IMG/VR virus record: IMGVR_UViG_3300042893_000318
Span: 1 to 62,297 of that record
From: a virus
Direction: 5' to 3' (one strand)
Length of the DNA stretch: 62,297 bases
The notes below the pieces were generated by a model. The model saw only the letters and a program-made list of their open reading frames with translations. It ran no database searches and was not told where the DNA came from. The position numbers and the translations under genes were made by a program. Numbering within the stretch: position 1 is the first letter of the stretch; each line of letters opens with the position of its first letter. Below, piece by piece: positions 5,017-16,856 of the stretch.

Positions 5017-5313
5017 TTATTCCTTTAAAGCTAGTATGTTTTTGCAGTTAATTAGAAGGTATTTGTTTCCTTCTTCATCTTCCATATCTGTTCCACTATG
5101 TTCTGGATAATAGACTGTATCGCCAACATTTATATTATTAATAGGAATAATTTCACCTTTATAGTTAGATTCCCCTTCACCCTTAAAAACTACTATTCCT
5201 GTTTTTGGGCCAGTATCAGAAATAACAGAAGATATAACTAAGCCAGTTTTAGTAGTCTTTTCTCCAGAATCAATCTTAGTAATTAAAAGCATATTGCCTA
5301 GCGGTTTAATCAT
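5017..5313 (-). CDS. groES: GroES-like co-chaperonin
   Basis: A 98-residue protein of normal GroES length. The family pattern is clear: IKPLGNMLLI at the N-terminus, a mobile-loop stretch EKTTKTGLVISS, GIVVFKGEGES, NVGDTVYYPEHSGTDM and a final ILALKE. GroES caps GroEL, so this protein probably replaces or modifies the host cap during folding of virion proteins. No GroEL gene occurs in the window. It sits in an operon led by the gene at 5645. Confidence 0.9.
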   Translation of the reverse strand: MIKPLGNMLLITKIDSGEKTTKTGLVISSVISDTGPKTGIVVFKGEGESNYKGEIIPINNINVGDTVYYPEHSGTDMEDEEGNKYLLINCKNILALKE

Positions 5314-6901: not shown

Positions 6902-7119
6902 TATTTTATTTTCCCGCCAAATTTAGACCAAGCTCTTTCATGTAAGAAGAAGCCAACCATTTCACATGCTGTATATACAATTGCAAATGTACCAGCGTAC
7001 TCCCAATGAGCTTCACCAGTAATAGCCTTTTCAAAAAAATAGACCATTGTGCCAACAAACCCAATATGAACTGCTGGCCAAGTAATTGATTTGTATAAAC
7101 TTCTTTTATTTGATTCCAT
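6901..7119 (-). CDS. DUF2061-like membrane protein
   Basis: A 72-residue protein with two hydrophobic segments (residues about 12-30 and 40-58). The pattern KRSLYKSITWPA near the start and FFLHERAWSKFG at the end matches the DUF2061 membrane family, which begins KRSLxKxxTW and ends YxHERxW. The role of that family is unknown. The ATG lies 6 nt after TATAAT, so the message is probably leaderless. Confidence 0.7.
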   Translation of the reverse strand: MESNKRSLYKSITWPAVHIGFVGTMVYFFEKAITGEAHWEYAGTFAIVYTACEMVGFFLHERAWSKFGGKIK

Positions 7120-7187: not shown

Positions 7188-8450
7188 TTACTTCTTTAGT
7201 GCAACCTTAGCCTTTGGATTAGCCTTGTTCCACTTGGTAGCCAACTTATTATATTCATTCTTATAAGTTACCTTAGCAGCTGCTGCTGCAACATCGTATG
7301 CTGACTTTGAAAAAGCAAGAGCTAGATCGGAAGCCGCTTTAGCGTCTGCTAGAGCCTTATCTGAAGCAACCTTGGATGCTGCTAGAGCGTCTGCCAAAAC
7401 CTTATCTGCTGCAGCCTTAGCTGTTACTGCTTCTGCTTTTGCGTTAGTAAGTGCTGCATCGGCAGTAGCCTTTGCTGTATCTGCTTCAATCTTTGCCTTG
7501 GCTTCAGCATCTGCTAAAGCCTTGTCTGAGGCAACCTTAGCATCTGCTAAAGCCTTGTCTGAGGCAACCTTAGCATCTGCTAAAGCCTTGTCTGCTGCTG
7601 CTTTAGCAACCTTTGCAGCTTCTACTGCTAGTGCTGCATCTGCTAAACGTCCAGACTTTTCTAAAGCAATTGAAGCCTTTAATGCTGCAATATCAGCAGC
7701 AAGGTCAGCGATAGCAAACTTAGCAATGGCTGACTTTACTGGTGCTGCAAATCCTGCTACTGGAGCAACTAGGGTTAGGCCAGTTACGATTACTGTAACT
7801 TCTCCTGCTACACCAACTGCAAGTGAGTATGAGGTAACTTCTGGAGACAACGCTTTAACAGATGAACCATCAGCGAAAGTTGAGCCAACGATTGTTGCTG
7901 TTATTGTATCTGAAGATGCGTTACCAAAAATATCAGTTGTTGAAACTGAGATTGCTGGAACTGTTCCAACTGCTGCTGCAGAAGGAACTGTAACTGCTAA
8001 ATTGTAAGCAGGTCCTGCTACACCTTTAACATAAATAATTGTTGAATACGCACCATTTGTAACGATAACGGAACCAACTGTTGTTGATGTTGTATATGCG
8101 TAAACGGTAATTGCTGCACCTGTTGAAACGCCAGTAAGTGCTGAAACACCACTATTAACATTCTTTGGGGCATCTGCTGTGTGAAGAGCAGAAATTAATT
8201 TAACTGTTGATGATGCTGTAAATGTAACAGATGTAGTTGCATCTGCTGTTGCTGTAATTGCGACAGCGTTTGCTGCGTTAATTACATTTGTTGATGGCAC
8301 CGCAATTGATGCAGGTGCTGCAGATGTAGTAGCGTTAGCAACTGTAGCAACTGTGACCGCAAGCGGTGCAGCAGTAGCTGAAATTGCAGAAACGCTCATA
8401 ATTGCTAGGGCTGCAGCAGTAGCAATTGAGATTTTCTTTAATGAATTCAT
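7188..8450 (-). CDS. Secreted surface-type protein with Ig-like region and hendecad coiled coil
   Basis: A 420-residue protein with a classical signal peptide (MNSLKKISI, hydrophobic core, cleavage near ATA-AP at residue 28). Residues about 30-235 are Ala/Thr/Val-rich beta structure resembling Ig-like repeats of bacterial surface proteins. Residues 250-385 form a long Ala/Lys/Asp helix with 11-residue repeats (KALADAKVASD), typical of a right-handed coiled coil. A basic tail follows. Composition resembles secreted proteins of small freshwater Actinobacteria, suggesting capture from a host. It has its own strong ribosome binding site (AGGAGAAATAAAG) and terminator. A role in covering the infected-cell surface or binding other cells is speculation. 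Confidence 0.75.
   Translation of the reverse strand: MNSLKKISIATAAALAIMSVSAISATAAPLAVTVATVANATTSAAPASIAVPSTNVINAANAVAITATADATTSVTFTASSTVKLISALHTADAPKNVNSGVSALTGVSTGAAITVYAYTTSTTVGSVIVTNGAYSTIIYVKGVAGPAYNLAVTVPSAAAVGTVPAISVSTTDIFGNASSDTITATIVGSTFADGSSVKALSPEVTSYSLAVGVAGEVTVIVTGLTLVAPVAGFAAPVKSAIAKFAIADLAADIAALKASIALEKSGRLADAALAVEAAKVAKAAADKALADAKVASDKALADAKVASDKALADAEAKAKIEADTAKATADAALTNAKAEAVTAKAAADKVLADALAASKVASDKALADAKAASDLALAFSKSAYDVAAAAAKVTYKNEYNKLATKWNKANPKAKVALKK
7510..7594 (-). repeat. 33-bp tandem repeat, 2.6 copies, encoding the hendecad
   Basis: Units at 7510-7542 and 7543-7575 are identical or nearly so, with a partial third unit to 7594. Each unit encodes 11 residues, one hendecad turn of the coiled coil. 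The near-identity at nucleotide level points to recent duplication. Confidence 0.85.
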
Positions 8451-8465
8451 TCTTTATTTCTCCTT

Positions 8466-8636
8466 TTAATTTAGTTCGTTTATTTTAACATGGAAAGAAC
8501 ACGGATCTCCGCCTTCGTCCCATTCTTTTGCTTCTTCTTCTGTGAGTGGTGGACCTTCATGTGTATCGCAAAATACATCTGATATCCACCCCCTTTCGAT
8601 TCCATTTTGGAACCAAATTTCAAACTCTAAATCCAT
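8466..8636 (-). CDS. Small acidic protein with an EEKEWDEGGDPC-type ending
   Basis: A 56-residue frame, MDLEFEIWFQNGIERGW at the start and LTEEEAKEWDEGGDPC near the end. The pattern (a WxxxGxxxGW helix, then TEEExxEWDEGGDPC) is one I associate with a widespread family in actinobacteriophages and host genomes, of unknown function. It overlaps the thioredoxin gene by 10 bases. Confidence 0.7.
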   Translation of the reverse strand: MDLEFEIWFQNGIERGWISDVFCDTHEGPPLTEEEAKEWDEGGDPCSFHVKINELN

Positions 8637-8932
8637 TCTTCTAACTCCTTAAGCAGAGCATGTTTAGGCTTTGCGCCTTGAATGGTCTTTACAGGTTTAC
8701 CACCCTTAAATAATACCATAGATGGTATTGAAGATATAGAGTGTTCTAAAGTTTTTTTGGGATTTTCATCAACATTTAACTTACCAATGAGTATTGCCCC
8801 TTCATCCGATAGTTCTTGTAGTATTGGAAGCATCTTTTTGCAAGGTCCGCACCATTCGGCCCAAAAATCTATTAGGATTAAATTATTTTGAGTTACTATA
8901 GTGTCAAAAGATGCGTCAGTTACTACGATCAA
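8627..8932 (-). CDS. trxA: Thioredoxin
   Basis: A 101-residue single thioredoxin domain with the intact active site WCGPCK (Cys28, Cys31), buried Asp22 and the cis-proline loop SIPSMVLFKGG. The start is TTG at 8932, overlapping the upstream TGA, with AAAGG six nt before it. A cytoplasmic disulfide reductase. It may supply electrons to ribonucleotide reductase or serve as a polymerase or folding partner, but neither partner is encoded nearby. No signal peptide. Confidence 0.9.
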   Translation of the reverse strand: MIVVTDASFDTIVTQNNLILIDFWAEWCGPCKKMLPILQELSDEGAILIGKLNVDENPKKTLEHSISSIPSMVLFKGGKPVKTIQGAKPKHALLKELEEWI

Positions 8933-9138
8933 TTTGAATCCTTTAGTTCATCCGCCGCTTCATTAAATTTGTACATAAATGCTTGAATAACAAATATTGC
9001 TGTTTCATTAGCATTATCTGCCATTGCCTTAGATGCCTCTTCAGTTTTTTGATCCTCTGGAACAGAGTTATACCATTTCTGATATAACTCTGAACCGATT
9101 TCCTTAATGATTTCTTCAAGGACTGTCATATTAGCCAT
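8929..9138 (-). CDS. 69-residue acidic helical protein
   Basis: Starts MANMTVLEEIIKEIG, overlapping the subtilase stop by 8 bases. Acidic, all-helical, with no cysteine or membrane segment. It lies between the secreted protease and thioredoxin and is translationally coupled to both. Not recognised. Confidence 0.65.
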   Translation of the reverse strand: MANMTVLEEIIKEIGSELYQKWYNSVPEDQKTEEASKAMADNANETAIFVIQAFMYKFNEAADELKDSN

Positions 9139-10063
9139 TAATTGCTGCCCCTATATTAATCAGAATTCCAGAACTTACGTGAGCATTTTTTGTTGGAGTT
9201 CCAGTATTTTTTAATAGGTTATAAATTTCTTGGTAAGATAAAAGTGGTTTAGCAGACTTTAATGCAATCCATTGAGCTGCTGCTATTTGAGTTGATACAG
9301 ATGTTCCAGCAGCATTGCCTTCACTTCCGCTTGGCAAAAATACTCTAGCAGAACCTTTTGCGTAAAAAGAAGTTTGTTTTACATCTACATTGCTATAAGA
9401 CTCAATCTCTCCGTATTGATCAGTTGCGCCTACGGCAATTGCATACGGCTGACACGCAGGCCAGTCAACTCTTTTATAATCATATGCGTTGCCAGCTGCA
9501 AAGAAAGCAGGCACATCTATTGATTTTAAGTTCCTAATTTGTAGATCGACTGCTCCGTTAGTTGGGCAATAGCTAAATAATTTCAATAGATTATGATGTC
9601 CCTGAGACATAGATACTGCTTGAATATTATATTTACTTTTATTGTTATAAACCCACTGTAAAGCGTTAGCCACAGATTTAGGACCAGCCAACTGCCGTGC
9701 GCCATTTGCGGTATTTCCAATGATTCTAACAAATACAATTTTCATGTTTGGATTTTCTGTAATTGCAGCAGAAGCCATTTGAGTACCGTGATTAAATTTA
9801 GAGGTTGAAAGAATGCTAAGTGGTAAAACGGAAGAACCAGGACCCTCCATAAAAGAAGTTCCATTAGGGCAACTATTCCAATCTAGGATACAAACTTCAT
9901 GGGCAATCTTGCCTTGAAAAATTGGTAATGATGTATTAAGTGCTGTATCCAAAATTGCTAATGTAGGTACTGATACTAAAACTTCTGACTTCATGGCTGC
10001 TTGAGCCGTTGTGGGAATGGCAATTGCTGTGGCTACAAGGGCCACTATAAGTTTTTTATTCAT
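9131..10063 (-). CDS. Secreted subtilisin-like serine protease (S8 family)
   Basis: A 310-residue protein with a signal peptide (MNKKLIVALVATAIAIPTTAQA, cleavage near residue 22). All three S8 catalytic elements are present: Asp39 in LAILDTALN, His92 in NHGTQMAS and Ser255 in AGTSVST, with the oxyanion Asn192 in AAGNAYD. It appears to lack the long propeptide of many subtilases. It is predicted to act outside the cytoplasm, perhaps on host surface proteins, on the repeat proteins encoded nearby, or during release. The ATG sits 6 nt after a -10 box with a TTGACA -35 box, suggesting a leaderless message. Confidence 0.9.
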   Translation of the reverse strand: MNKKLIVALVATAIAIPTTAQAAMKSEVLVSVPTLAILDTALNTSLPIFQGKIAHEVCILDWNSCPNGTSFMEGPGSSVLPLSILSTSKFNHGTQMASAAITENPNMKIVFVRIIGNTANGARQLAGPKSVANALQWVYNNKSKYNIQAVSMSQGHHNLLKLFSYCPTNGAVDLQIRNLKSIDVPAFFAAGNAYDYKRVDWPACQPYAIAVGATDQYGEIESYSNVDVKQTSFYAKGSARVFLPSGSEGNAAGTSVSTQIAAAQWIALKSAKPLLSYQEIYNLLKNTGTPTKNAHVSSGILINIGAAING

Positions 10064-10101: not shown

Positions 10102-10257
10102 TTATTCTTTTTTATACCATTTGCCAGAATCGAGCTGTGGGTCTTCCATACCTTGGGACTCCATTAAATTATTTACACATACAGTAAGTAATTCAACATG
10201 CATTTCTAATCTAATAACCTGCATTTCAAGCATTCTTAATCGTTCTGATTTTCTCAT
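10102..10257 (-). CDS. 51-residue helical protein
   Basis: MRKSERLRMLEMQVIRLEMHVELL forms an amphipathic, possibly coiled-coil helix, followed by ESQGMEDPQLDSGKWYKK. It overlaps the upstream gene by ATGA, with GAAGGAAGA as ribosome binding site. The layout resembles small coiled-coil proteins common in phage accessory regions. Unknown function. Confidence 0.65.
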   Translation of the reverse strand: MRKSERLRMLEMQVIRLEMHVELLTVCVNNLMESQGMEDPQLDSGKWYKKE

Positions 10258-10598
10258 TCTTCCTTCATCTCTCTATCCATTGGTGTAGGGGCTGTTGCCA
10301 AACTTCCACATTTTGCACATTCCATATCTAAGAAATATGTGGCTATTTCAAAGTTATCAAATACTACCTTGAGATTAAATATCTCGTTACCACATACGCA
10401 TATGTGAGTTGGTGTTCCTCTTAGATCTATAGAATTACTATAGTCTATATAATTAAGATCCATTGCTTCCGCCATTTCTTGTTCTTCTTCTTTGTCTATA
10501 TAGTAAAGACCAAAGTCGTATCTTTGAAGATATCTTTTTGCCAATGGAATAGACAAGGCTAATCCAAGTACTGACAAAATTATTAAAGATATCATCAT
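10254..10598 (-). CDS. Membrane-anchored zinc-ribbon protein
   Basis: About 114 residues: an N-terminal membrane helix (MMISLIILSVLGLALSIPLA), a charged linker, then CVCG and CAKCG, a zinc ribbon split by about 25 residues. The frame opens at ATG 10607, but that codon overlaps the predicted -10 hexamer, so the paired ATGs at 10598/10595 are the likely start. Probably an inner-membrane protein with a cytoplasmic metal domain. Role unknown. Confidence 0.65.
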   Translation of the reverse strand: MMISLIILSVLGLALSIPLAKRYLQRYDFGLYYIDKEEEQEMAEAMDLNYIDYSNSIDLRGTPTHICVCGNEIFNLKVVFDNFEIATYFLDMECAKCGSLATAPTPMDREMKEE

Positions 10599-10605
10599 AA
10601 CAATC

Positions 10606-10634
10606 ATTATACTCTACACTTGAATATATGTAAA
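10606..10634 (-). promoter_or_regulatory. Promoter overlapping the end of the Ntn-hydrolase gene
   Basis: TTTACA (10634-10629), 17-base spacer, TATAAT (10611-10606). The predicted start, 7 nt downstream, falls on the ATG pair at 10598-10595, so the transcript is leaderless or nearly so. Confidence 0.65.
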
Positions 10635-11168
10635 TGGTGGGGCTACGCTCATTGAAAATTCTGCTGCTGCTTCTAATGCTAATTTTAACCTCATTTTAGG
10701 ATTCTTTTGGTTCTTAGTAGCATGTAAGGCTCCTAGCGCAAACATACCGCCTGATCCTTCCGCCATATAATTAACTATATTCTCTCCCACATGAAAGTCT
10801 TCATCTATAGTAAATATTCTTCCGCATATACCTACTATAAAAATTCCACCCTCATCTTCTTGACCAGATACCTGACTTCCGTATCCACCGCCTCTAAATG
10901 ATTCTTTAACTGAATCAATGAACTTGGTCTTCATAAACTTGTCTAATCCGCTATTAGTTTTAGTTGGCGTATATCTTGGAGGAGTCCAGGAGTACTGTAA
11001 AATTTGACCCATTCTAAAACTATCAGTAAATGCTATGCCATACTGACCAACCTTAAATACCTTGGGGTCTTTTCGACTAAGTATCCACCCAGACTTTTCA
11101 TCAGAAGCTGCGTGGTCGGCAGCCATATAGACTACATCATTCTGAGCTATTGCTACAATACAGGTCAT
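10614..11168 (-). CDS. Proteasome beta / HslV-like Ntn-hydrolase
   Basis: A 184-residue protein beginning MTCIVAIAQNDVVYMAADHA. After removal of Met it would expose Thr1, the nucleophile of proteasome beta and HslV subunits. Asp18 (mature Asp17) in AAD and a Lys in the DPKVFKVG strand sit where the catalytic Asp17 and Lys33 lie. GSGGMFALGALHAT matches the conserved GSGGxYALAAA stretch of HslV. No ATPase partner (HslU, ARC/Mpa) is seen. It may form a self-compartmentalising protease or a non-proteolytic homologue. The ATG follows TATACT by 6 nt. Confidence 0.8.
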   Translation of the reverse strand: MTCIVAIAQNDVVYMAADHAASDEKSGWILSRKDPKVFKVGQYGIAFTDSFRMGQILQYSWTPPRYTPTKTNSGLDKFMKTKFIDSVKESFRGGGYGSQVSGQEDEGGIFIVGICGRIFTIDEDFHVGENIVNYMAEGSGGMFALGALHATKNQKNPKMRLKLALEAAAEFSMSVAPPFTYIQV

Positions 11169-11174
11169 ACTCTT

Positions 11175-11180
11175 AGTATA
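11175..11180 (-). promoter_or_regulatory. -10 box of a leaderless promoter
   Basis: TATACT (11180-11175) is followed by 6 nt and the ATG at 11168. No clear -35 box. Confidence 0.45.
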
Positions 11181-11200
11181 CTAAATATAAATTCGAAGCG

Positions 11201-11503
11201 CTAGTCCTCATCATTATGTATTTGAGCATGAGTTAATCTAATTAAAGTCTCTTCTAATTCAGCACGAACTACAATTAATTCTTGTATGGCTTCATAGTAT
11301 TTATCTTTCCATTCATCTAAATCCCGCTCAATTTTGTACAATTTAATTTGAAGGTCTTTTAATTCCATTTTTAATATATCATGTTCTTTTTCAGATTTTC
11401 TAATTTTTTCTCTTTTAGACTCTCTGATTGAAGATATGATAGCAGTTCCCGCACCGCTTACTAAGGATGCCAGAATGCCAAATAAGACGGTATTTAATTC
11501 CAT
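11201..11503 (-). CDS. Membrane-anchored coiled-coil protein
   Basis: A 100-residue protein with one N-terminal membrane helix (residues about 4-24) followed by a long charged coiled coil (KREKIRKSEKEHDILKMEL onwards). This arrangement is seen in phage spanin-like, holin-associated and Rz-like proteins, but it is far from the lysis genes, so no lysis role is claimed. Confidence 0.65.
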   Translation of the reverse strand: MELNTVLFGILASLVSGAGTAIISSIRESKREKIRKSEKEHDILKMELKDLQIKLYKIERDLDEWKDKYYEAIQELIVVRAELEETLIRLTHAQIHNDED

Positions 11504-13306: not shown

Positions 13307-13488
13307 TATTTGTCCTCCTTATTTCTAATTGGGCTTGTTAATACCCATAGGGCTGTTGTTGCCATGATTCCATATCCAACAATTGTCTTAGCACTACCGT
13401 CCAAAACTACCCAGGCTATAAACATTCCAAGGAGAGTCCATGCCTGGTCTACCATATCTTTTAGGATATTTTTTACTATTCTTACCAT
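13306..13488 (-). CDS. Small holin-like membrane protein
   Basis: A 60-residue protein with an amphipathic N-terminus (MVRIVKNILKDMVDQA) and two hydrophobic segments (residues about 16-30 and 36-51), ending SPIRNKEDK. Strong ribosome binding site AGGAGGAAG within the end of the upstream gene. The topology fits a class II holin. Inference only. Confidence 0.6.
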   Translation of the reverse strand: MVRIVKNILKDMVDQAWTLLGMFIAWVVLDGSAKTIVGYGIMATTALWVLTSPIRNKEDK

Positions 13489-16004
13489 CTTCTTCCTCCT
13501 CTTGATGCTGGTGAATTTGATCCTCCACCAGAACTTCCGCCGCCTGTGCTTCCACCTGTTGCTCCACCTGCAGCTACTGCTGCTGCGTTAATTGCCGCTC
13601 CTGCCGCTACAACTGTTGCCACAACCATATCTGTTGCTTCTTCTCTTTCTTCTTTTGACATATCAGCACCGATACTTCCAAGTGCTGCTAACGCTGCTCC
13701 AGGATCTGAGAATGCTTCTTGAAGCAATGCTGCGGGATCTTGCAATAATTCAACTTGTGCTGCTACTTCTGCAGTAATAACAACTGCGTTTCCTTGTTCA
13801 TCTGTTCTTACATCAACAGGAGTCTCTTTCGGAAGGTCTTTATACTCAATTCCAGAATCTTTAATTTGCTCAGAACTTAAAGCTTCTCCATCTGCCTGTG
13901 CAACAAGGGCATCTGCTACTAATGACTTTTCTGATTCATTTAACTTACCGCCATCTGCAGTCAATACTTCTACAAGATTAGCAACCTCAGCCTTACTAAC
14001 ATTTCCATCAGCCATTAAAGTATTAACAACTTCATTAGCTTGTGCCTGAGTAATAGTATTACCAGTAATTACTGCTGCTACTGCTTCTTTAACTTCTTCT
14101 TTAGTTGTTTCATTCTTTGCTTTTTCTGCAGCAATTCTTTCTGCTTCTAAACGTGCCTCTTCTTTAGCTTTGGCTGCTGCCTCTTGTTTGGCTTCTTCTA
14201 CTGCTTTAGCATCTGCTTCTGCTTTGGCTCTGGCTTCTTCTGCAAGCCTTGCTTTTTCCTCAGCAGCTATTCTTTCCTCTTCAGCCTTTGCAGCAGCTTC
14301 TGCTTGTCTTATTGCTTCCGCTTTTGCTTCTTCTTCTGCAGCAATTCTGTCAGCCTCTGCCTTTGCTTCTGCCTCTGCTTTTTCTTCTGCTGCTTTAACT
14401 TCTTCTGCAATACGATCTGCTTCTGCTTGGGCTTCTATCTCTGCTTGAATTCTTGCTGCTTCAATTTCTGCTTCTATGCGATCAGCCTCTGCTTTTGCTT
14501 CTGCTTCCGCTTTAACTCTTTCTTCTTCTGCTGCTGCTTCTTCCGCTGCAATTCTCTCTGCCTCTGCTTGAGCTGCTTGTTCTGCTGCGATTCTAGCAGC
14601 CTCAACCTCTTCTGCTATCCTTGCTGCCTCAGCCTCTGCTGCTATACGAGCAGCCTCAATCCCTGCTGCTATTCTTTCAGCCTCAAGTCTTTCTGCTTCT
14701 GCTAGTCTGGCAGCTTCTGCTAATCTTGCTACCTCTGCAAGCCTTGCTACCTCTACCAATCTTGCTGCTTCTGCTAACCTAGCAATCTCTGCAAGCCTTT
14801 CTACCTCTGCTAACCTAGCAACCTCTGCAAGTCTAGCAACTTCTGCGAGTCTTGCTACTTCTGCAGTAATGGCTGCTATTCTTGCAGCTTCTTGCTGTGC
14901 AGCAAACAATGCTGCAGCTTCTGCTTGAAGTCTTGCTACTTCAGCCAATCTTGCTACTTCTGCTATTCTGGCAACTTCTGCTAGTCTTGCAACCTCAGCA
15001 AGTCTTTCTACTTCTGCTAGTCTTGCTACTTCTGCTAATCTTGCCACCTCAGCTAGTCGTGCTACTTCTGCAGTTGCGGCTGCTATAGCCGCTTCAGCTG
15101 CTTGTGCTGCTGCCTGCTCTGCAGCAATTTCTTCTGCAGTCTTTCCAATTTTAAGTGTAACAACATTTGAGTTTACAGAGTATAGGGCTAATGTATCATT
15201 ATCTGATCTAATATGAAATGACCAAACAGTTCCACTTGGCCTCAAGCTTTCAAGTAGTGAGTGATCAATTGTTATTGTTGTGTTTAAAGAATTAGGTCCA
15301 CCAACATTTCCAGTTGCAATTCCCCATCCGTTACACCCAGAACAATTAAAACTTATTGCATACCTTTCTGGCTGAGTGTTGCCAGTGTCTGGTGAATCCC
15401 AGTCTAAAACTGTTGAAGTTGAACCATCAACAACAGTCAAGTTTCTTGGGGGGCCTATTGTTTTAACTACTGGTGCTGCTTGTGAAGTAAAGGCTGACGA
15501 GGGAATAATCTGCATTGAGCCAGATTGATCCCAAGCAAGGCTGACCCAGGCCCCGCCACCATTTTCATAGTACATTAACTCTATGGTCTTTGGGACTCCT
15601 GCTGTAAATGATACTGGAGAACTTATAGTTCCTCCACCACCCTTATCAACCCAATCATCTGCTATTAAAACGCCATCAATATAAATCCTAGTTCCGTCGT
15701 CTGCTTCTGCTAAAAATAATATATTTTGCGTTGTGTTGCTAAGAATAGACCCAGTAAATCTTACAATAACGTCTTCCGAAGGACCACCCAAAACACTGCC
15801 ACTACCCCACTGAAAGTCAATGTTAGGTACATTTGTTGTTACTGTTGCAGTATCCCCTTGTGGTATGTAAGGAGAGCCATTCTGACCGAGTACGTTATGT
15901 ACTTGAGCAGTTAAACCTTCTGCTGCATGAGCTTCGTTTGGAACAGCAAAAAGCCAACCTACGGATAGCAGGAAGGCTGTAAATACTCTTAACTTTCTAG
16001 TCAA
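13482..16004 (-). CDS. Secreted PA14/FN3 protein with giant Ala/Glu coiled coil
   Basis: An 840-residue protein starting at TTG 16004, fixed by AGGAG ten nt upstream. Signal peptide residues 1-28 (cut after NEAHA). Residues about 30-175 resemble a PA14 carbohydrate-binding domain (FLAEADDGTRIYIDGVLI, ELMYYENGGGAWVSLAWD). Residues 185-285 resemble an FN3 domain. Residues about 300-430 are 6-residue repeats of AEVARL, then an Ala/Glu/Arg helix to about 620, a helical EF-hand-like region, and a Gly/Ser-rich tail ending RGGRRW. It lies between stress genes and the holin-like genes. It may decorate the host surface or bind glycans; it is not a typical endolysin. Confidence 0.75.
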   Translation of the reverse strand: MTRKLRVFTAFLLSVGWLFAVPNEAHAAEGLTAQVHNVLGQNGSPYIPQGDTATVTTNVPNIDFQWGSGSVLGGPSEDVIVRFTGSILSNTTQNILFLAEADDGTRIYIDGVLIADDWVDKGGGGTISSPVSFTAGVPKTIELMYYENGGGAWVSLAWDQSGSMQIIPSSAFTSQAAPVVKTIGPPRNLTVVDGSTSTVLDWDSPDTGNTQPERYAISFNCSGCNGWGIATGNVGGPNSLNTTITIDHSLLESLRPSGTVWSFHIRSDNDTLALYSVNSNVVTLKIGKTAEEIAAEQAAAQAAEAAIAAATAEVARLAEVARLAEVARLAEVERLAEVARLAEVARIAEVARLAEVARLQAEAAALFAAQQEAARIAAITAEVARLAEVARLAEVARLAEVERLAEIARLAEAARLVEVARLAEVARLAEAARLAEAERLEAERIAAGIEAARIAAEAEAARIAEEVEAARIAAEQAAQAEAERIAAEEAAAEEERVKAEAEAKAEADRIEAEIEAARIQAEIEAQAEADRIAEEVKAAEEKAEAEAKAEADRIAAEEEAKAEAIRQAEAAAKAEEERIAAEEKARLAEEARAKAEADAKAVEEAKQEAAAKAKEEARLEAERIAAEKAKNETTKEEVKEAVAAVITGNTITQAQANEVVNTLMADGNVSKAEVANLVEVLTADGGKLNESEKSLVADALVAQADGEALSSEQIKDSGIEYKDLPKETPVDVRTDEQGNAVVITAEVAAQVELLQDPAALLQEAFSDPGAALAALGSIGADMSKEEREEATDMVVATVVAAGAAINAAAVAAGGATGGSTGGGSSGGGSNSPASRGGRRW
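14690..15065 (-). repeat. 18-bp degenerate tandem repeats encoding AEVARL
   Basis: The region consists of runs of an 18-base unit (about CTTGCTACTTCTGCTAGT on the plus strand) encoding the hexapeptide AEVARL with variants AEVERL, AEAARL and AEIARL. About twenty units occur in two blocks, interrupted by a QAEAAALFAAQQEAARIAAI segment near 14880-14940. Confidence 0.85.
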
Positions 16005-16370: not shown

Positions 16371-16394
16371 CTATTTCTTTGCTCTTTTTGTCTT
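16365..16394 (-). promoter_or_regulatory. Promoter upstream of the structured element and fmdB
   Basis: AAGACA (16394-16389), 18-base spacer, TATAAT (16370-16365), directly after the HSP20 stop codon. Confidence 0.55.
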
Positions 16395-16856
16395 TACTTC
16401 AGTATCTCTAAGATCTTCAAATCCTTCTATTTCATCAAAGTCATGAATATCAAACTTGACTGGTCTTTCGCTTTCTGGAATAAACTTAGTTAGTCCTACC
16501 ATCAAGATTCCGTTTGAAATAACTACGGAATTAACCTTTACATACTCTGCGAGAGAAAATGTTTTAACAAATGAACGTGCCCCAATTCCCTTATAAAGAT
16601 ATTCTTTAAGAGGGTCTTCGTGTGCAGCACCTTTAATTGTTAGTACATTCTTGTCTTGTTCTACTTCAATATCTTCTTTGTTAAATCCAGCCAAGGCCAG
16701 CTCAATAACATACATCTCATCTGGTCCTTTAACCTTAGAGATATTATGAGGTGGATAGTTTGAAGTGTTTCTATTTATATTTTGTAGATCTTTAATTTGG
16801 CGATCAAAACCAATAAAAAATGGATCATTAAAAAAATCCAGTGTTGTCGTTACCAT
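16371..16856 (-). CDS. hsp20: Small heat shock protein (HSP20 / alpha-crystallin family)
   Basis: A 161-residue protein with the alpha-crystallin domain at about residues 40-140: MYVIELALAGFNKEDIEVE, VLTIKGAAHE, RSFVKTFSLAEYVKVNSVVISNGILMVGL, matching the family's beta strands. The C-terminal I-x-I motif is replaced by a basic tail (VKTKRAKK). Strong AAAGGGG ribosome binding site. It holds unfolded proteins in an ATP-independent way; with GroES it forms a phage chaperone set. Its promoter overlaps an inverted repeat (16883-16919). Confidence 0.88.
   Translation of the reverse strand: MVTTTLDFFNDPFFIGFDRQIKDLQNINRNTSNYPPHNISKVKGPDEMYVIELALAGFNKEDIEVEQDKNVLTIKGAAHEDPLKEYLYKGIGARSFVKTFSLAEYVKVNSVVISNGILMVGLTKFIPESERPVKFDIHDFDEIEGFEDLRDTEVKTKRAKK

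Follow-up and report, generated by a model that had tools for sequence, protein, structure and literature searches.

What does a bacteriophage gain from a proteasome-like peptidase of its own? HslV and proteasomes normally require an ATPase unfoldase, and a sequence-only reading of the viral record IMGVR_UViG_3300042893_000318 had proposed a phage-encoded proteasome/HslV-type Ntn-hydrolase that comes without an ATPase. We have analyzed this gene in the whole stretch of 62,297 nucleotides (referred to here as the window) and in related phage records. The features discussed below are collected in Table 1.

Table 1. Features of the window around the peptidase gene and elsewhere in the record
Feature	Position	Strand	Remarks
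GroES	5017-5313
Large putatively secreted protein, Ala/Glu-rich	7188-8450
Thioredoxin	8627-8932
Subtilase (PF00082)	9131-10063		N-terminal signal-like segment; adjoins the peptidase region in 70/80 loci
117-aa membrane protein, zinc-ribbon-like CxC...CxxC region	10254..10607	minus	directly downstream of the peptidase gene, 6-nt gap, 78/80 loci
Proteasome-like threonine peptidase (most likely AAH-type)	10614..11168	minus	start codon at 11168; 184 aa
Lys36 codon (mature Lys35; HslV/proteasome Lys33 equivalent)	11061..11063	minus	65/65 invariant, aligned with HslV Lys33
Asp18 codon (mature Asp17)	11115..11117	minus	65/65 invariant
Predicted nucleophile codon, Thr2 (mature Thr1)	11163..11165	minus	Thr in 64/65 relatives, Ser in 1/65
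Extended -10-like element TAGTATACT	11175..11183	minus	conserved upstream of the peptidase gene, 80 related loci
100-aa protein, N-terminal TM and coiled coil	11201..11503	minus	directly upstream of the peptidase gene, 74/80 loci
Large putatively secreted protein, Ala/Glu-rich	13482-16004
Hsp20-type small heat-shock protein	16371-16856

The peptidase and its active site

The ORF starts with the residues MTC and has no propeptide; the mature peptidase is predicted to begin at Thr2 after removal of the methionine. The Met-Thr start, the Asp at mature position 17, the Lys at mature position 35 and the GSGG strand (part of GSGGMFALGA, residues 138-147), to which the sequence-only reading had pointed, are all present, and none of them is due to chance. 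In a 65-member alignment of diverse relatives the three catalytic positions are conserved as listed in Table 1, Arg52 and Gly138 are invariant, and the GxG motif is nearly so. The position equivalent to the oxyanion-hole Gly47 is occupied by Gly in 57 of the 65 family members and by Ala (A46) in the clade to which the window belongs, where it was found in 79 of 80 loci. This oddity counts to some extent against an active peptidase, although the hole uses a backbone NH, which Ala retains and which should suffice there.

Profile searches against solved structures gave E-values of 1.8e-9 to HslV and 6.6e-9 to BPH, the Betaproteobacteria proteasome homologue, with the catalytic columns aligned: Thr2, Asp18 and Lys36 pair with Thr1, Asp17 and Lys33 of HslV. 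PHROG 1040 ('peptidase HslV family') matches residues 1-183 with an E-value of 3.3e-20 and is also matched by every member of the alignment (65/65). A search of the window record with PF00227 returned no match; the single peptidase sequence scores 19.3 bits, below the Pfam gathering score of 22.4.

An AlphaFold2 model built with the 65-member alignment (mean pLDDT 95.2, pTM 0.90) has a group I proteasome-like core, in which a beta sandwich is accompanied by the helix pairs 51-60 and 75-94, and 141-150 and 157-171. The last element of secondary structure is a strand at 179-183, and the model contains no added domain or insertion and no C-terminal S12/H5. When the model was compared to the PDB by Foldseek, BPH ranked first (E 8.7e-12, probability 1.00, TM 0.76-0.78), followed by HslV and then by archaeal and other 20S beta subunits. 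The structure prediction proposed as a check on the earlier reading thus returned an Ntn-hydrolase fold, with BPH, HslV and proteasome beta subunits as the top matches to the model. Together with the alignment of the Thr, Asp and Lys columns by profile, this bears out the claim of a phage-encoded enzyme of the proteasome/HslV type, and we consider the ORF confirmed as an Ntn-hydrolase of the proteasome superfamily.

Class and relatives

The peptidase is no lone curiosity, as phage proteasome homologues have been described as classes, AAH (sequence cluster OC.661151 on a CLANS map) among them, since a survey in 2021 (Fuchs 2021, PMC8665760). It belongs to group I and most likely to class AAH, judged by the published description, because of its compact form, the lack of a propeptide and a distribution over alpha-proteobacteria, actinobacteria and phages. 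Shared with AAH are the compact fold of group I, in which both helix pairs are present, the lack of both a propeptide and the C-terminal S12/H5, and homologues on rhizobial and Streptomyces plasmids as well as in Firmicutes, Bacteroidota and many phages. There are also differences: the survey reported no AAH in phages specific for Actinobacteria (PMC8665760), whereas the phages of the window clade carry WhiB, and this clade stands on a separate long stem and shows the Ala at the oxyanion-hole position.

A scan of IMG/VR found at least 151 stretches with close relatives, of which 80 loci (79-100% identity) were retained; a wider scan found 366 stretches with relatives. Among named phages, at about 27-43% identity, relatives occur in Geobacillus virus E3, Moorella MTATph1, Ochrobactrum OC, Psychrobacter D'Alembert, T5-like phages and 121Q, and the family extends to phages infecting Firmicutes, Proteobacteria and others. 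Those of the named phages that are members of PHROG 1040 (Geobacillus E3, Moorella MTATph1, 121Q and T5-like phages) differ from the window peptidase by divergence only, with 29-43% identity for those that were aligned. Cellular relatives are found on symbiotic plasmids of Rhizobium, Sinorhizobium, Mesorhizobium and Paraburkholderia and on plasmids of Bacillus licheniformis and Streptomyces, with about 37-46% identity to the rhizobial, Paraburkholderia and Streptomyces plasmid proteins. When genomes were scanned with the window protein, the only two homologues came from Bacteroidota genomes.

In a maximum-likelihood tree the window clade forms one group (support 100/100) on a stem of 1.01 changes per column and lies within a set that also holds rhizobial, Streptomyces and Bacteroidota proteins; the outgroup placement of HslV and BPH, on very long branches, was not used. 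Relatives annotated as 'protease' or 'ATP-dependent protease subunit' in the actinophages Microbacterium Pumpernickel, Arthrobacter Hum25 and DSL-LC01 group apart from the window clade, with modest support (78/54).

Some of the cellular loci deserve mention in their own right. AAH-type homologues lie on symbiotic plasmids of legume symbionts (loci L184, L183, L175 and L182), and the R. etli homologue is near an Hsp20 gene. On the B. licheniformis plasmid (L176:1609-6582), genes for an AAA-family ATPase, a DUF1257 protein and a DUF2997 protein lie upstream, separated from the proteasome homologue by a few genes, and this ATPase is a possible partner of the Firmicutes relatives.

BPH (PDB 5ovs, 5ovt, 5ovu) is the best structural match to the peptidase and shares with it the Thr/Asp/Lys/GSG active site and the lack of a known unfoldase. 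The two proteins have only ~20% identity and are separated by a long branch. Loop 95-109 of the phage peptidase (SGQEDEGG) is acidic, as is the long pore loop of BPH between H2 and S7, but much shorter. HslV (ClpQ) has the same fold, size and catalytic residues, but it works with HslU, and neither HslU nor any other AAA+ partner was found in the phage. An identity with HslV itself was rejected: the peptidase scores 12.2 bits against the equivalog cut-off of 157.75 for NCBIfam TIGR03692, and no AAA_2 or AAA match was found in 15 related phage records, a few of them perhaps incomplete. Identity with the 20S proteasome beta subunit (PrcB) was rejected as well, with 19.6 bits against the cut-off of 191.9 for NCBIfam TIGR03690 (20S_bact_beta) and no propeptide. 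PPH proteins are phage-borne members of group I like the peptidase, but they are ~140 aa long and lack helix H2 (PMC8665760), whereas the peptidase has 184 aa and H2 at 75-94; this identity was not retained either.

The literature that we found on phage proteasome homologues consists of annotations (PMC8953757, PMC7289586) and the 2021 survey, and none of the homologues found there, nor any named member of PHROG 1040, has a tested function. The kind of protein is therefore already known from the survey, from PHROG 1040 and from other phage annotations. What is new is an AAH-like clade that is large, under strong constraint and carried by phages whose hosts are probably actinobacterial; it is absent from the survey.

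Gene neighbourhood, host and expression

In ~70-80 of the 80 loci the genes follow the same order: the subtilase, the small membrane protein, the peptidase, the coiled-coil membrane protein, the zinc-ribbon-like protein and WhiB. The 117-aa membrane protein downstream of the peptidase gene has no Pfam or PHROG match, and its gene often has a leaderless promoter of its own. The 100-aa protein encoded upstream shows a weak Rz-spanin-like match. Genes for GroES, an Hsp20-type small heat-shock protein and thioredoxin are also present in the window, an unusual protein-quality set to accompany the peptidase. Two further proteins are large, putatively secreted and marked by long Ala/Glu-rich repeats (AEVARLAEVARLAE... 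and ADKALADAKVASDKAL...); their position is conserved across many loci and their sequence is variable. PADLOC returned no defence-system match.

WhiB was found in 15 of the 15 related records and, among 14 control genomes, in Corynebacterium only. Since all 15 records carry WhiB, the hosts of these phages are probably actinobacterial, and the kind of host considered in the earlier reading is to this extent upheld as probable.

Upstream of the peptidase gene a TATACT ends exactly 6 nt before the ATG, and there is no Shine-Dalgarno sequence, so that the mRNA is likely to be leaderless; transcription probably starts from a promoter belonging to this gene. The arrangement is not confined to this gene. 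In the 80 related loci TATA[AC]T occurs exactly 6 nt before an ATG at 289 coding-strand sites, compared to 9-82 sites at the other spacings between 0 and 15; the opposite strand has 10. Within the window it precedes the minus-strand starts at 7119, 11168, 13003, 18431, 21109 and 45435. With one representative taken per gene family (24 families), TTGAC is enriched 17 nt upstream of the -10 element. To judge by these motifs, the elements are leaderless promoters of the sigma-70 type used phage-wide, with the A of the ATG as the predicted start site.

Selection and probable mode of action

Across the clade the peptidase has a median dN/dS of 0.065 and a median amino acid identity of 84%. For seven neighbouring genes (the subtilase, both flanking small membrane proteins, the zinc-ribbon-like protein, a 106-aa protein, WhiB and thioredoxin) dN/dS is 0.10-0.32 and amino acid identity 47-68%; dS is near saturation, so these ratios are approximate. 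Purifying selection on the peptidase is the strongest among the eight genes compared in the window, and this lowest dN/dS, combined with an invariant active site, argues for a predicted active enzyme and not a decoy.

An inhibitor that enters the host proteasome was one of three mechanisms that the sequence-only reading had offered; as a decoy it would insert into the host 20S proteasome and block Pup-dependent proteolysis. The shared 20S beta fold and the probably actinobacterial host would suit such a role. However, catalytic residues that a decoy does not need are conserved family-wide, there is no alpha-type N-terminal extension, the scores given above place the peptidase far from the PrcB of actinobacteria, and the family is also represented in phages that infect Firmicutes, Proteobacteria and others. 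We therefore regard this mechanism as very improbable.

The other two mechanisms turn on the presence of an unfoldase. Neither AAA_2 nor AAA domains were found in the 15 related phage records (the longest 116 kb, several near 115 kb), some of which may be incomplete. A search for AAA_5 in these records gave two matches, both below the cut-off; the match in L177 was rejected as an unfoldase, as on inspection its sequence reads as a kinase and nucleotidyltransferase. The same AAA-domain searches were positive in 14 of 14 control genomes. The absence of an accompanying ATPase that had been proposed thus holds for three AAA+ families in 15 records, and no ClpP was found. The survey also reported no co-occurring AAA+ partner for these homologues (PMC8665760). 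Given the lack of these AAA+ families in the records and the precedent of BPH, for which Thr-1 is the covalently modified nucleophile and no unfoldase is known (PMC5777263), a stand-alone peptidase chamber appears likeliest, and of the three proposals that of a self-contained protease fits best.

Alternatively, a peptidase ring might dock on an AAA+ unfoldase of the host, such as ClpX/ClpC or an ARC/Mpa-type ATPase, and redirect it. A requirement for an unfoldase is normal for HslV and proteasomes, and the phage relatives encode none. Docking is conceivable on these grounds, yet no positive evidence for it, such as a docking motif, was obtained: the alpha subunits to which 20S ATPases bind are missing, the published distribution table has no HslV in Actinobacteria, and the survey saw no AAA+ partner (PMC8665760). 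We consider it improbable.

A role in virion maturation, as a prohead protease, might be imagined for an intracellular peptidase of a tailed phage. The relatives that include the head region have a Peptidase_S78 prohead-protease-like protein of their own in 9 of 9 cases, which makes capsid maturation an unlikely task for the peptidase, and the neighbours of the gene, in what is an accessory region, are thioredoxin, WhiB and small membrane proteins and not the capsid genes. There is hardly any likelihood left for this role.

The activity itself may be of a narrower sort. Some members of the superfamily have activities of another kind; connectase, for instance, is a ligase. The phage peptidase could be a processing enzyme of narrow specificity or a transpeptidase/ligase, monomeric or ringed, that cuts or joins a single phage or host protein, or a few of them, and does not serve general degradation. 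Its extreme conservation (dN/dS as above) would be in keeping with this, as would the existence of a separate secreted subtilase in the phage and of an S78 prohead protease in near-complete relatives. In addition, purified BPH, the closest relative with a solved structure, showed no activity towards standard peptides or casein (PMC5777263); this also weighs against the reading favoured below, as the phage peptidase may need an unknown activator. Against narrow specificity, no conserved substrate partner was seen, the predicted structure is a plain core without an insertion like the two-helical lid of connectase, and the genetic surroundings of cellular and phage homologues are unrelated. On balance we think such an enzyme unlikely, if still worth consideration.

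We thus favour, with moderate confidence, an active N-terminal-threonine peptidase of group I, most likely AAH, that is self-compartmentalising and has no dedicated AAA+ unfoldase. In this stand-alone peptidase, methionine aminopeptidase would remove Met1 and expose Thr2, which Lys36 and Asp18 would activate as in HslV and BPH. From the fold and the precedent of BPH, a tetradecameric double ring, the peptidase probably assembles as a homo-oligomer, a closed ring or double ring that encloses the active sites. The chamber would act independently of ATP, and with no dedicated unfoldase its substrates in the infected cell would be polypeptides that are unfolded or only loosely structured, or else a small number of specific proteins.

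More tentatively, these phages of actinobacteria may use an ATP-independent, unfoldase-free proteasome-like chamber under strong selection to rewire proteolysis in the infected cell, beside GroES and Hsp20. The hosts in question may have a Pup-proteasome and are probably without HslUV. If the host does have a Pup-proteasome, two proteasome-type systems would be present within one infected cell. The clade offers over 80 natural variants and, being strongly constrained, without an unfoldase and accompanied by a separate prohead protease, is well suited to learning the purpose of a stand-alone proteasome-like chamber.
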